NCBI GenBank assembly: GCA_013694685.1
Contig: JACDBY010000438.1
Coordinates: 1-18,781, forward strand
From: Actinomycetota bacterium
GTDB taxonomy: Bacteria; Actinomycetota; Thermoleophilia; Gaiellales; Gaiellaceae
Direction of reading: 5' to 3'
DNA: 18,781 bases
Under the pieces are notes generated by a model. That model saw only the letters and a list, made by a program, of their open reading frames with translations. It was not told the origin of the DNA and ran no database searches. Below are positions 355 to 15,901 of the stretch, piece after piece. A program made the position numbers and the translations under genes. Numbering within the stretch: position 1 is the stretch's first letter; the number at the start of each line of letters is the position of its first letter.

Positions 355-1655
355 CGAGGAGAATTCGCGGGCGCGCGGCAGCGCTCACGCTGATCGGAGC
401 GCTCGCTCTGATCGCCGCCGGCTGCGGCGGAGATGACGGCGGAAGTAGCGGGGACGGCGGAGACGTCTCGGGCACGCTCGCCGTGACCGCAATCTGGTCG
501 GGAGCCGAGCAGGAGGCGTTCCAGGCCGTGATCGACGGATTCACCGAGGCCAATTCCGGCGTCACGGTGAACTACACCTCTGGCGGCGATCAGCTGCCGA
601 CGCAGCTCTCGACGGCAGTCGAGGGCGGCAACCCGCCCGACATCGCGTTTCTGGGTCAGCCCGGACTCGTGCGCGACTTCGTGGAGAAGGACGCTCTACA
701 GCCGCTCGACTTCGCGCGGGAGGACGTCGAGACGAATCTCGGCGACTCGGCCGTCCAGCTCGGCTCGGTCGACGACACGCTGTACGGGTTCCTCTTCAAG
801 GCGGCCAACAAGTCCCTCGTCTGGTACAACGTCGCCGCGTTCGAGGACGCCGGCGTCGAGCCGCCCGGAACGTGGGACGACTTCCTCGCCGCGGCGGACA
901 CGATCGGCGCGTCCGGCATCCCGGCGTTCTCGATCGGCGGCGCCGACGGCTGGACGCTCACCGACCTGTTCGAGAACATCTACCTGCGGACCGCGGGCCC
1001 GGAGAAGTACGACCAGCTCGCTGCGCACGAGATCCCCTGGACCGACCAGTCGGTGAAAGACGCCCTCACCGAGATGGCAAAGGTCGTCGGGAACGGCGAC
1101 AACATCGCCGGTGGAACGACGGGGGCGCTGCAGACCGACTTCCCGACGTCGGTGTCGAACGTCTTCTCCGAGAGCCCGAAGGCCGCCCAGGTGATCGAGG
1201 GCGACTTCGTTCCCGGCGCGGTCGAGTCCGGGCTCGAGCCCGAGACCGACTACAACGTGTTCGACTTTCCGGCGATCAACGACTCCGCCCCGTCCGTCGT
1301 GGGAGGTGGCGACACGGTCGTCATGTTCAAGGACAGCCCCGCCGCACAGGCGTTCATCCGCTACCTGACGACGGTCGAAGCGGCGGAGATCTGGGCCGAG
1401 CGGGGTGGCTTCGGATCGCTCAACCAGGATCTCGACACGGGGACGTACCCGGACGCGATCCAGCAGACGGCGGCCGGGGCGCTGAGCGAGGCGGAGGTGT
1501 TCCGCTTCGATCTGTCCGACCTCCAGCCTGCCGCGTTCGGCGGCACGGTCGGTCAGGGTCTCTTCAAGCTCTTCCAGGACTTCGTCCAGAACCCGGACGA
1601 CGTCGACGGAATCACGCAGCAGATGGAGGATGCGGCGGCGAAGGCATTCGGCTAG
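351..1655 (+). CDS. Extracellular carbohydrate-binding lipoprotein of an ABC importer (family 1 solute-binding protein)
   Basis: A 434-aa secreted lipoprotein. The N-terminus has arginines (MTRRIRGR), a hydrophobic stretch and a lipobox LIAAGC with the lipidated Cys at residue 25, then a Gly/Ser/Asp-rich linker. The mature part has family 1 solute-binding features: TLAVTAIWSGAEQEAF, then NPPDIAFLGQPGLV near residues 94-107, and an aromatic-containing hinge (ANKSLVWYNVAAFEDAG) near residues 152-168. Length is normal for sugar binders. The start is supported by AAGGGAG at 337-343, 7 bases before the ATG, and by the ATGA overlap with the ATPase gene. It would capture a sugar or oligosaccharide outside the membrane and hand it to the permeases at 1814-4053. 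The TAG stop is also the first triplet of the structured repeat at 1653-1753. Confidence 0.93.
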   Translation: MTRRIRGRAAALTLIGALALIAAGCGGDDGGSSGDGGDVSGTLAVTAIWSGAEQEAFQAVIDGFTEANSGVTVNYTSGGDQLPTQLSTAVEGGNPPDIAFLGQPGLVRDFVEKDALQPLDFAREDVETNLGDSAVQLGSVDDTLYGFLFKAANKSLVWYNVAAFEDAGVEPPGTWDDFLAAADTIGASGIPAFSIGGADGWTLTDLFENIYLRTAGPEKYDQLAAHEIPWTDQSVKDALTEMAKVVGNGDNIAGGTTGALQTDFPTSVSNVFSESPKAAQVIEGDFVPGAVESGLEPETDYNVFDFPAINDSAPSVVGGGDTVVMFKDSPAAQAFIRYLTTVEAAEIWAERGGFGSLNQDLDTGTYPDAIQQTAAGALSEAEVFRFDLSDLQPAAFGGTVGQGLFKLFQDFVQNPDDVDGITQQMEDAAAKAFG

Positions 1656-1753
1656 CGCCGCGTCTCGCAAGGCTCCACCGGAGAGTGCCCCGGTGGAGCC
1701 TTGCGACTCCCGCGGCACTCGGTGCCGGACAGGTCCGGCACCTACACCGGTTC
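1653..1753 (+). repeat. Structured intergenic repeat, copy 1 (hairpin plus palindrome)
   Basis: A ~100-base element that begins at the TAG stop of the binding-protein gene. It contains a perfect 16-bp stem (1666-1681 with 1690-1705) around an 8-base loop. About 15 bases later comes a perfect palindrome of 10-base arms, GGTGCCGGAC (1721-1730) and its complement (1733-1742), around a central AG. A second copy in reverse orientation lies at 15267-15367. By eye the two align along their full length at about four-fifths identity, with compensatory differences in the first stem. No T-tract follows the hairpin, and the next gene of the same operon starts 61 bases beyond. It therefore looks less like a plain Rho-independent terminator than an RNA-stability or attenuation element, or a REP/MITE-like repeat. 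Confidence 0.85.
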
Positions 1754-1781
1754 CAGGACACGCTAGGAGACGACGCACCAG

Positions 1782-1817
1782 ATGACTGAGTTCGTATCTC
1801 GGCAGGCACCGAGATGA
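1782..1817 (+). CDS. Possible 11-codon leader ORF overlapping the permease start
   Basis: The reading frame encodes MTEFVSRQAPR and ends in a TGA that overlaps the permease ATG as ATGA (1814-1817). An AGGAGA sequence at 1765-1770 lies 11 bases before its ATG, whereas the permease ATG itself has no clear Shine-Dalgarno sequence of its own. The arrangement suggests ribosomes load on the leader and re-initiate at the permease. This is inferred from spacing only; so short an ORF can arise by chance. Confidence 0.3.
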   Translation: MTEFVSRQAPR

Positions 1818-3157
1818 GCGTGACCGGATCGGTGGCGGGGGACCCCCCCGTCACCCCGACCCCCGAGGCCGTGGAGTCCGGCGGCTGGCGTAGGCACGCG
1901 CTCGCCGCCGGGTTCCTCGCCCCTGCCGCGATCTTCCTCGGTGTCTGGATCGTCTACCCGACGCTGACGACGATCTGGCGCAGCTTCTTCGACGAGTCGG
2001 GTGACGAGTTCGTCGGGCTGCAGAATTACCAGACGCTCTTCACGAGCGACGTCATCCTGACCGCCATCAAGAACAACGCGATTTGGGTACTCGTCGTGCC
2101 TGCGCTCGTGACCTCGGTGGGGCTCGTGTTCGCCGTGCTCACCGAACGGATCCCCTGGTCGGTCGCATTCAAGACGGCCGTCTTCATGCCGATGGCGATC
2201 TCCGCGTTCGCGGCGGGGATCACCTGGCGGATCGTCTATCTCCAGGAGCCGGACCGGGGGGCGCTGAACGCCGGAATCGCGGTCGTCAAGGACTCGTTCT
2301 CCTCCGGCGGGGTGCTGGCGGACGCGCGGCCGTCGTCCGACGCGCTCGAGGGAACCTCGCAAGGGACCATCCGGCTCGCCGAGCCCGTGGGACGCGGCGA
2401 CATCGCGCTCCTCGGCCTGACGGCGATCGGCTCGTCCGAGGTGCCGGACGACGCCGAGCAGGCCGTCCGACCTGAAGCGCTGCAGGGTGGGATCAGGGGT
2501 GTCGTGTGGCGGGACTTCAAGCCGGGTGGCGGTACGGCGGGAGAGGTCGAGCCCGACGAGCTCGGCCTTCCGGGCGTGACCGTGAAGCTCCGCACGAGCG
2601 GCGGCGGCGCCGTCGGCTCGACCATGACCGCGACCGATGGGACGTTCTCCTTCGACGAGGTGGAGTCGGGTGAATACAGCGTTGCAATCGGGTCGGAGTC
2701 GTTCTCGCAGTCCTTCGGGGGCGTCACCTGGCTCGGGGAGAAGCTCGTCACCCCCGCGATCCTCATCTCCTACCTCTGGATCTGGGCGGGCTTCGCGATG
2801 GTCGTCATCGCGGCCGGTCTCGCCGCGATCCCGCGCGACGTGCTCGAGGCGGCCCGGACCGACGGCGGTACGGAATGGCAGGTCTTTCGGCGTGTCACCG
2901 TCCCGCTGCTCGCGCCCGTGCTGACGGTCGTCTTCATCACCATGCTGATCAACGTCCTCAAGGTGTTCGACATCGTGATCGCGATCGCGCCCGGCTCCGT
3001 CCAGGACGACGCGACGGTGCTCGCGCTGCAGATGTGGCGCACGGCCTTCGGTGGCTCGAACGATTTCGGCGTCGGCTCCGCGATCGCCGTCTTCATCTTT
3101 CTGCTCGTAGTCCCGATTCTGGCGCTCAACATCCGGCGCTTCCGAAGGGAGCTGTGA
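1814..3157 (+). CDS. Sugar ABC transporter permease, MalF type, with an inserted SdrD_B/Ig-like outer-loop domain
   Basis: A 447-aa inner-membrane permease, about 150 residues longer than the usual ~300. Residues 27-141 hold the first three transmembrane segments (e.g. AAGFLAPAAIFLGVWIVYP; WVLVVPALVTSVGLVFAVL; TAVFMPMAISAFAAGITWRIVY). The loop after YLQEPDRGALN then runs on for about 160 residues. Within it, about residues 226-291 read GVVWRDFKPGG...GLPGVTVKLR...ATDGTFSFDEVESGEYSV, the signature of SdrD_B / carboxypeptidase-regulatory-like Ig folds. The permease resumes at TPAILISYLWIWAGFAMVVIAAGL, and the EAA coupling motif is EAARTDGGTEWQVFRRVTVPLL (345-366). The insert falls where E. coli MalF carries its P2 domain. 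The TGA overlaps the next ATG by one base. Membrane topology and domain boundaries are by eye. Confidence 0.93.
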   Translation: MSVTGSVAGDPPVTPTPEAVESGGWRRHALAAGFLAPAAIFLGVWIVYPTLTTIWRSFFDESGDEFVGLQNYQTLFTSDVILTAIKNNAIWVLVVPALVTSVGLVFAVLTERIPWSVAFKTAVFMPMAISAFAAGITWRIVYLQEPDRGALNAGIAVVKDSFSSGGVLADARPSSDALEGTSQGTIRLAEPVGRGDIALLGLTAIGSSEVPDDAEQAVRPEALQGGIRGVVWRDFKPGGGTAGEVEPDELGLPGVTVKLRTSGGGAVGSTMTATDGTFSFDEVESGEYSVAIGSESFSQSFGGVTWLGEKLVTPAILISYLWIWAGFAMVVIAAGLAAIPRDVLEAARTDGGTEWQVFRRVTVPLLAPVLTVVFITMLINVLKVFDIVIAIAPGSVQDDATVLALQMWRTAFGGSNDFGVGSAIAVFIFLLVVPILALNIRRFRREL

Positions 3158-14936: not shown

Positions 14937-15161
14937 CTACTCGTCCGCGCCGCTGTCGGCACCACCGTCGGCACCACCGTCGGCGCCGCCGTCCTGCTCG
15001 CCGGGCACGCCCGAGGCCCCACCGTCGGCCGGACCGTGGGTACCGCTGTCGGCACCGCTGTCGGCGCCACCGTCCGCACCACCGTCGTGCTCGCCTTCCA
15101 TGCCACCTGCCGCACCGCCGTCAGCGGGGCCGTGCTCGTCGTCGCGCTCCATGTCGGACAC
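14937..15161 (-). CDS. Small Gly/Asp/Ala-rich repeat peptide (74 aa), unknown
   Basis: An acidic, low-complexity peptide with a GTG start at 15161 and an excellent GGGAG 5 bases before it. After nine mostly charged residues (MSDMERDDE) come two tandem ~32-residue units. Each begins HGPADGGA, continues through a variable GxxGE segment, and ends in a run of GGAD/SGAD tetrads. The peptide has no Cys, Lys, Leu, Ile, Phe, Tyr, Trp or Asn, and a single Arg, so it is unlikely to fold as a globular protein by itself. Its TAG stop is embedded in the GGAG that precedes the possible CTG start of the cupin gene, suggesting coupling. Possible roles are a modification substrate, a metal-binding peptide or an acidic linker-like protein. 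I do not recognise a family. Confidence 0.65.
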   Translation of the reverse strand: MSDMERDDEHGPADGGAAGGMEGEHDGGADGGADSGADSGTHGPADGGASGVPGEQDGGADGGADGGADSGADE

Positions 15162-15266
15162 CTGCGCTCCCTTCGGAGTCGATGGACGTGACTGCCCCGG
15201 GGTCCTTCCCTCGGCTGGAGCGAATCTAACGTGCTTTCCAGTGCATCCTCTCCCGACGACTCACCC

Positions 15267-15367
15267 GAGCCGGTGTTGGTGCCGGACCTGTCCGGCACCT
15301 GGTGCCCCGGAATCGCAACGTTCCGCCCGGGGCAGTTTCCGGTGGAACGTTGCGTGACGAGGCACTA
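15267..15367 (-). repeat. Structured intergenic repeat, copy 2 (reverse orientation)
   Basis: The reverse complement aligns end to end with 1653-1753. It starts at the TAG stop of the 178-aa gene (15367-15365). It has a hairpin CGCAACGTTCC/GGAACGTTGCG (15344-15354 with 15314-15324), extended by CCGG/CCGG past a small bulge. The palindrome GGTGCCGGAC (15278-15287) with its complement (15290-15299) follows, then ACACCGG. In the hairpin, two base pairs differ from copy 1 by paired changes that keep the stem. It lies between the 178-aa gene and the repeat-peptide gene, 106 bases before the latter's start. Confidence 0.85.
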
Positions 15368-15901
15368 GGCCGCGAGTGCGCGGAGGTCGTCCACGGTGGA
15401 CTCGAGCAGGGTGTCGCGGAGGTCGAAGAGCCCGGCCCAGAGCGACGAGCGGTCGAGAGCCACACCGAGTCGGGAGGCGTCGTCGAGCCCCTGGAGCGCA
15501 CGTACGAGGACGGCGAGCTCGAGGTAGACCGCCGCGACGCGGTTCGGGCAGGCGACGACGCCGGCTCGCTCGAGCACGGGTTGCCATTCGACGAGCTCGG
15601 CTGCGCCAGGCCCGCCGTACCACGAGCGACCCTCGGCTCGGTCCGAGCCGAGCTCGACGAGGTACGCGGAGAGCGGCCGCTCGAGCCCCGCGAGCGCTGT
15701 CTCCACCCGATCCGCGGCGTGACGGAAGGCCGCCTGGCGGCCGCCCGGGGTCGCCGGGACGGCCTCACCTCGTCCCCACCGCTCGAGAAGCCGGCAGAAG
15801 GCGAGCGCCGCGGCCTCGCAGGCGCGAAGCTGCCCAATCAGTCGACGCGCGTGACTCGGGGTCACGCCGTTCGCCTCGAGCACCGCGGGCCAGCCGGTCA
15901 T
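15365..15901 (-). CDS. Hypothetical 178-aa helical protein coupled to RNase J
   Basis: I do not recognise this protein. It is predicted from composition to be mostly alpha-helical: Ala/Leu/Arg-rich runs such as SHARRLIGQLRACEAAALAFCRLLERWG, AAFRHAADRVETALAGLERPLSAYLVELG and VAAVYLELAVLVRALQGL. There is no signal peptide or membrane segment. Conserved-looking aromatic patches are RSWYGGPGAAELVEWQPVL and SSLWAGLFDLRDTLL. The ATG overlaps the RNase J stop as ATGA (15901-15898), so it is translated by coupling to RNase J and is very probably real. Its stop is the first triplet of the structured repeat. A role beside RNase J or in cell physiology cannot be assigned. Confidence 0.75.
   Translation of the reverse strand: MTGWPAVLEANGVTPSHARRLIGQLRACEAAALAFCRLLERWGRGEAVPATPGGRQAAFRHAADRVETALAGLERPLSAYLVELGSDRAEGRSWYGGPGAAELVEWQPVLERAGVVACPNRVAAVYLELAVLVRALQGLDDASRLGVALDRSSLWAGLFDLRDTLLESTVDDLRALAA

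Follow-up and report, generated by a model that had tools for sequence, protein, structure and literature searches.

IS630 reportedly prefers the TA found within CTAG, as Tenzen and Ohtsubo are said to have described in 1991. For ISY100, a relative of IS630 within the IS630/Tc1-mariner group, insertion into TA with duplication of TA is reported in vitro (PMC2170065). Bacterial MITEs, namely NEMIS, RUP, ERIC, Nezha and others, are described as non-coding elements of 70-300 bp with inverted ends and strong stem-loops, often lying next to genes (PMC3733652), and TA at the termini is given as usual for them (PMC5896051). PMC3733652 also describes GTAG-tagged REPs and, in Anabaena variabilis, GTAG-15 dimers inside long palindromes that end in TATAGGA...TCCTATA.

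The window considered here, i.e. the whole stretch of 18,781 nucleotides that was analysed, carries two copies of a repeat that is probably a MITE, non-autonomous and with IS630-like ends, which inserts at TA and preferably in CTAG. The term IS630-like is used as a statement on mechanism and not as one of proven membership. Judging from its ends, the repeat would be a short non-coding element moved in trans by a transposase of this type.

Organization of the repeat

The original prediction had described a two-part structured repeat running from TAG through a hairpin and the palindrome GGTGCCGGAC-AG-GTCCGGCACC to ACACCGG, and direct reading bears out both copies with this internal order, as well as two compensated base pairs in the stem, where CGCAAGGCTCC/GGAGCCTTGCG of one copy becomes CGCAACGTTCC/GGAACGTTGCG in the other with both sides changed in each pair. 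While the two modules, the multiplicity of copies and pairing beyond that of shuffled sequences all stand, the extent assigned to the unit was too short: the full unit covers 128-129 nt in the window, i.e. 26-27 nt beyond the limit initially proposed (Table 1). In an alignment of ten copies, the conserved sequence spans CTAG to GCACT over 125-131 nt, which is too short to encode a transposase, and what had been taken as a spacer includes part of an outer stem, namely its 3' arm; in the consensus of the ten copies, GGCAC pairs with GTGCC. In the genome of the window (G000), the element is laid out as a left end, an inverted copy of this left end (making the hairpin), the palindrome GGTGCCGGACAGGTCCGGCACC and a right end. 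The long hairpin results from this doubling of the left end, and the middle carries different hairpins depending on the species, here a GTAG-type REP palindrome. This palindrome has four matches in the window at up to 3 mismatches (two sites, both strands) vs. none in 200 shuffles.

Table 1. Features of the two copies of the element in the window
Feature	Position	Strand	Details
Element copy 1	1652..1779	+	Model R1 match of 128.4 bits; copy belonged to the training set
Copy 1 setting			Flanked by two genes of an ABC transporter, those of the sugar-binding protein and of the first permease (gene prediction and Pfam of flanking genes)
Genes flanking copy 1	351-1655 (TAG stop) and 1832-3157		Gene prediction
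Copy 1 left-end CTAG	1652..1655	+	TAG at 1653-1655 is the stop codon of gene 351-1655
Copy 1 left hairpin	1657..1716	+	Left terminal repeat and its inverted copy; DNA and RNA folds
Copy 1 left hairpin, inner arms	1665-1681 and 1690-1706	+	
Copy 1 central palindrome GGTGCCGGACAGGTCCGGCACC, REP-like hairpin	1721..1742	+	GTAG precedes on the minus strand
Copy 1 right terminal inverted repeat, degenerate	1747..1779	-	Alignment of ends; inner limit approximate
Copy 1 right end			CACC-AG, one change from CAC-TA-G
Element copy 2	15240..15368	-	Model R1 match of 134 bits; copy belonged to the training set as well
Copy 2 setting			Downstream of the 178-aa gene 15365-15901(-), TAG stop, adjoining the RNase J gene
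Copy 2 left-end CTAG	15365..15368	-	TAG at 15365-15367 is the stop codon of gene 15365-15901(-)
Copy 2 left hairpin	15302..15365	-	DNA fold
Copy 2 central REP-like palindrome	15278..15299	-	CAAC next, so GTAG tag altered
Copy 2 right terminal inverted repeat, degenerate	15240..15272	+	Alignment of ends; inner limit approximate
Copy 2 right end			CACT-GG, one change from CAC-TA-G

In the vicinity of the copies, the ABC permease (window 1814-3157, +) exhibits an SdrD_B domain over the Pfam cut-off at residues 230-293, ahead of BPD_transp_1, and a CarboxypepD_reg match that overlaps SdrD_B and lies just under its own cut-off. Besides, a tract of 12-nt GC-rich repeats (GTCGGCACCACC-like) adjoins copy 2 at 14938-15132.

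Siblings from two sister species of the same genus (G001 and G006) share the ends of the element (CTAGTGc..GCGTCTCgCAAC..ACCGGAAA, with the inverted form at the opposite end) and differ in their middle hairpins. The G006 version associates the same kind of hairpin with two other hairpins and the right end, mostly over 161-164 nt, and the G001 version consists of either two back-to-back hairpins (about 126 nt) or a single one (54-56 nt). The right end is the left end inverted with changes, e.g. CTAGTGCGGCGTCTCGCAACATTGCACCGGAAA vs. CTAGTGCGCCGTCTCCAGACGTTCGACCCGAAA in G006; these terminal inverted repeats are clear in the examples from G001, G006, Lentzea and 0813_bin7, and degenerate in the right ends of both window copies. 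The G001 and G006 versions that were read are multi-copy and devoid of the GTAG REP of the window genome's version. In other words, the unit originally predicted consists of two modules, namely transposon-like ends common to sister species and a GTAG-type REP occurring only in this genome's version. The middle module seems replaceable, as in copy C33:6635 the left hairpin is followed by a GGGCC-type REP instead of the usual palindrome.

REP sequences and Y1_Tnp genes

On the opposite strand, the central palindrome reads GTAG-GTGCCGGACCTGTCCGGCAC, the CTAC/GTAG tag being intact in 7 of the ten aligned copies and altered in the other three, copy 2 of the window among them. With GTAG beside a palindrome, the central hairpin has the form of a GTAG REP. 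A second repeat family, CGTAGGGGCCGGACCTGTCCGGCCC (L329-L348, contigs of G000), carries GTAG tags, is REPIN-like and seems more numerous than the element; in the 20 stretches considered, the palindrome is immediately followed by CTAC, on the strand shown, in 24 of 29 matches, and inverted pairs occur in at least four stretches (L336, L345, L346 and L347), a layout that is the one given for GTAG REPs in PMC3733652.

One Y1_Tnp gene lies over the Pfam cut-off in contig C241. This RAYT-like gene of 191 aa (L026:2847-3422(-)) is bordered on either side by GTGCCTGGCAC beside GTAG, the two copies being inverted. This REP differs from both the element palindrome and the CGTAGGGGCCGGACCTGTCCGGCCC family, and no cognate RAYT flanked by the element's own REP was found. 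A second, weaker Y1_Tnp match in C216, a contig scanned for the core palindrome only, is below the Pfam cut-off. Y1_Tnp was rejected as the mobiliser of the whole element, considering that the flanking palindromes differ and that versions without REP are multi-copy.

Copy number and distribution

A covariance model (R1) was built from the ten aligned copies, which match it by construction. From two copies within the window, the original prediction had anticipated many in the genome, and this expectation holds: with 150 of the 3976 first-look candidates scored, the model locates the element, with scores of at least 50 bits, in no fewer than 24 separate places of the 2.56-Mb assembly, some matches being incomplete or situated at the end of a contig. 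When up to 3 mismatches are allowed, there are 77 oriented matches of the palindrome in the whole genome vs. 0 for the reversed control, a figure that counts both strands of near-palindromic sites and includes the second, GGGCC-type family.

In a search of relatives, as had been suggested, model matches at E ≤0.001 occur in 8 of 61 related genomes, the own genome included and under stricter filters. On reading the loci, those of G001 and G006 are real siblings and that of G002 is a diverged trace; those of G034 are mostly GTAG-REPs, some with a piece of element end alongside, those of G017 and G022 are only GC-rich palindromes followed by CTAC, and G049 has a single match limited to the hairpin region. 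Searching with the end sequence yielded 15 oriented matches in G000, 26 in G001, 27 in G006 and 1 in G002, with none for the reversed control and no match in G003, G004 and G005 of the genus. Siblings are hence found in two of the six other genomes of the genus, with a trace in one more. By RNase J, the closest relative is G004 (86% identity vs. 74-79% for the others), in which no end match was found, so that the presence of the element is patchy and does not follow kinship.

Within the family, the end pattern at up to 1 mismatch occurs in 12 of 103 genomes and reversed-control hits occur in 9 genomes, so single hits outside the genus mean little; several of those read across the family look like chance matches inside genes. 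In G116, from another genus of the family, short inverted tails come after a small number of TAGTGCGGCGTCTCGCAACGTTCCGCCTGGA-like units (L122, L127, L132 and L136), which could represent a further sibling. In a plasmid collection, the window element has only one weak 35-base match (E 0.3), on a Thermus plasmid, and the Lentzea element (see below) has none; no match to the window element was found in a phage collection, nor in viral contigs by exact pattern. In searches of open-licence PMC papers, none of those listed named this element family in its title or at the start of its abstract.

Ends, target sites and candidate transposases

Among 84 outer ends scored in 56 elements, 44 are flanked by CTAG, 11 by GTAG (10 of these in G001) and 29 otherwise. 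NTAG flanks are found at 55 of the 84 ends, the 44 with CTAG included, and the ends start with GTG, both being IS630-type end traits. With ends of the form C-TA-[GTG...CAC]-TA-G, IS630-like or Tc1/mariner-like, the element would enter TA, preferably inside CTAG, and would duplicate TA, as suggested by the flanks and the codon positions.

Scanning GTDB genomes for CTAGTGSSGYGTCYCRCAAC returned 18 stretches. Apart from Thermoleophilia, these come from three Lentzea genomes, one MAG each of Actinomycetota and Rokubacteria, and a short contig of Planctomycetota. Lentzea and these two MAGs contain 12 paired units of about 110-165 nt with unrelated interiors, 8 of which have CTAG at both ends; as Lentzea and the other distant matches came from an end-sequence search, the similarity of their ends is partly selected, the far end being outside the search. 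When up to 3 mismatches are allowed, the end pattern does not occur more often in the Lentzea genomes than its reversed control, so the evidence there comes only from the paired units. Two of seven Lentzea DDE_3 (IS630-type) loci have TA-flanked inverted ends, CTAGTG...CACTAG, one element starting with CTAGTGTCCTGCGCC... and the other with CTAGTGTCGTGAGG..., each closing with ...CACTAG; the other five gave no matching ends. The two with the same end grammar support an IS630-like mechanism for the present element. The DDE_3 element with CTAGTGTCCTGCGCC ends (L286:769-2069), which has an open frame of 366 aa, sits precisely within the CTAG that forms the right end of a miniature element, and this insertion offers a natural example of target choice. 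Lentzea L147, which has one matching end, was dismissed as an autonomous element since there is no second end within 8 kb and no transposase-like frame by eye.

Regarding the host genus, PF13358 (DDE_3) gave no hit in G000 (assembly 86.7% complete) or in G001. The IS630 of G006 has a good PF13358 hit and was rejected as the source, its ends being GGTTACTAAC-type and unrelated, and the weaker PF13358 hits in G002 and G004 have no such ends. Since no cognate transposase with the element's ends was found among the DDE_3 hits of the genus, the element is filed as IS630-like in mechanism only.

Position relative to stop codons

According to our own gene prediction, on which all stop-codon tallies rest, in 28 of the 56 elements the TAG of one end also serves as the stop of the neighbouring gene; 38 ends face the 3' end of a gene within 60 nt, 28 sharing its stop and 10 not. 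In the same DNA, 74 CTAG sites lie outside elements, of which 27 are predicted stops, 12 are in genes and 35 are intergenic. CTAG-ended elements are at stops in 23 of 37 cases vs. 27 of all 74 other CTAG sites (binomial p 0.002), or vs. 27 of the 62 CTAG sites outside genes (binomial p 0.03, Fisher p 0.10). Because 27 of the 74 other sites are predicted stops too, the overlap of elements with TAG stops is largely explained by CTAG targeting combined with the loss of insertions inside genes, though perhaps not entirely. A special attraction to stop codons beyond CTAG was set aside, the excess over non-genic CTAG sites being weak. Insertion into a CTAG containing a TAG stop would leave TAG at the same position, and we propose that such insertions would for this reason be tolerated and accumulate at gene ends.

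In orthologues without the element, the gene stops at an identical codon position for two loci and at a close one for the remaining locus, and no empty site was seen at base level. For the RNase J-adjacent gene, 8 of the 26 relatives with a hit were looked at and all 6 readable tails stop at the same codon position, these stops being TGA in four and GTAG in two, with no CTAG. CysN has the same end position in 6 of 6 genus relatives, 5 of them with TAG, including 3 CTAG. For PurQ of G006, the tails of relatives measure 36-45 residues vs. 38 (9 of 24 relatives with a hit looked at), and 4 of the 9 have a TAG stop, 3 as CTAG. In all three cases, the element went into a gene end that already existed, and the protein was not clearly altered. 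L174 of G001 is different: both of its ends read GTAG, so that the codon before insertion would have been TAC, which is not a stop. As an aside on gene order, a ribokinase-like frame (by eye) directly follows the RNase J-adjacent gene in relatives with a readable tail, and in the window there is a PfkB gene some 2 kb beyond it.

Folding and covariation

Both copies fold more strongly than shuffled sequences, as DNA (z -6.2 for copy 1 and -5.4 for copy 2) and as RNA (z -6.2 and -4.7, respectively). A statistical check of covariation, proposed along with the original prediction, was carried out on an alignment of 20 copies made without structure information, and it places stem pairing above shuffles: 91.0% of cells are paired, 10 pairs are changed on both sides vs. 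a shuffle mean of 4.1 (reached in 2 of 500 shuffles), and the paired-cell count and covariation score were reached by none of 500, with the qualification that such shuffles ignore the descent of copies from shared masters. When the alignment was slid by 1-3 columns, paired cells and score were both far lower, yet 3-9 pairs changed on both sides persisted vs. 10.

The original prediction had gone further in reading the compensated pairs as direct evidence that the fold is maintained, and this is not supported for an RNA fold. Traces like those of covariation would also arise if the arms of a DNA palindrome corrected one another. Comparing mismatches by strand is more informative, as selection on one transcript should favour G-T mismatches on its own strand. 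G-T and A-C mismatches number 27 and 17 in the 20 copies, and 7 and 9 in the 12 best copies; in view of no clear difference, nothing points to selection on one RNA strand. Besides, scanning the window against Rfam gave no match at gathering scores, and no intrinsic terminator was found around either copy, the reading of the repeat as such a terminator being rejected on account of a GC stem without T tract after the hairpin at both copies.

Origin of the repeat

An IS630-like MITE accounts best for the copy number, shared ends with different middles, majority CTAG or GTAG flanks, unchanged stop positions in orthologues at the tested loci and a patchy distribution. Against it stand the failure to find a transposase with these ends, the 29 of 84 ends with neither CTAG nor GTAG, the degenerate right ends of both window copies and the absence of CTAG at the stops of the RNase J-adjacent gene in relatives. 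A MITE of another DDE family, which would rely on a different transposase and duplicate 4 bp, YTAR or CTAG, as for IS5-like elements, would suit the prevalence of CTAG among the flanks (44 of 84 ends), and in Pseudomonas, CTAG or YTAA is duplicated by a MITE that has been provisionally linked to IS5 (PMC3189936); we regard this reading as unlikely, considering that GTAG accounts for 11 of the 55 NTAG ends, which is better suited to TA with a preference than to a fixed CTAG, and that the same end grammar occurs in two Lentzea DDE_3 elements. Slightly less probable still is a REP-type nature of the entire unit, which a Y1 (RAYT) transposase would then spread by acting on single-stranded hairpins. 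The GTAG tag of the central hairpin, the many GTAG-REPs and the Y1_Tnp gene of the genome, as well as the REP dimers in long palindromes of A. variabilis (PMC3733652), all speak for it, and they are countered by the multi-copy versions of G001 and G006 without this REP and by the different palindrome around the Y1_Tnp gene. The ends of the element also weigh on this point, since REPs are not known to have CTAG-flanked inverted ends as a usual feature.

The remaining readings give the repeat a role at gene ends. A cis-acting RNA maintained as such, e.g. an mRNA 3'-end stabiliser or a terminator right after stop codons, would agree with the strong folds, the covariation above shuffles, the half of the elements that abut a TAG stop with their excess over other CTAG sites, and the location of copy 1 between the binding-protein and permease genes; its probability is nevertheless put as low as that of the REP-type reading, given mismatches without clear strand bias, the lack of a terminator-like T tract at either copy, a patchy occurrence in the genus with orthologous genes devoid of the element at the three loci tested, a stop excess that weakens against CTAG sites outside genes, covariation controls that ignore shared masters, and a number of pairs changed on both sides that slid alignments approach. 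With a small chance of being right, the repeat might serve as a portable gene-end cassette: by targeting CTAG stops, it would place in one step a kept TAG and a strong hairpin behind a coding sequence, and hosts would retain copies because these insulate neighbouring or convergent genes or set unequal expression within an operon, copy 1 being a candidate instance. Under the preferred reading of an IS630-like MITE, any effect on mRNA ends would be a side effect, and a host function is neither shown nor needed. In more general terms, the target choice of a transposon can by itself yield much seemingly regulatory placement, such as hairpins starting at stop codons, and an RNA function is not demonstrated by compensatory changes alone when the copies compared belong to a palindromic mobile element. 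The family, in which the middle hairpins vary and whose end grammar recurs in other Actinomycetota, provides natural insertions for testing the effects of hairpins on gene ends.

Comparison with known systems

Compared to IS630/Tc1-mariner elements such as IS630 and ISY100, the repeat is alike in its TA flanks in a CTAG setting and, through two Lentzea examples, in its GTG-starting ends; it differs in having no transposase gene, and no IS630-type element with matching ends was present among the DDE_3 hits of the host genus. The likeness to GTAG-tagged REPs and REPINs is limited to the middle module, with GTAG beside the palindrome in the majority of aligned copies, and was not seen in the sister-species versions read. 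The GTAG-15 repeats of A. variabilis nonetheless constitute a close precedent for a GTAG REP within a larger palindromic repeat, from which the present case departs by a single REP instead of a dimer and by different sequences and host. With bacterial MITEs, the element shares its short length, the lack of a transposase gene, many dispersed copies, terminal inverted repeats, a frequent location beside genes, strong stem-loops and TA at the termini, but one of its ends is doubled into a hairpin and its middle differs between species; its end sequence is not known to match any named MITE family. Rather than a new regulatory RNA, the repeat appears to represent a new family within a well-known class of elements.
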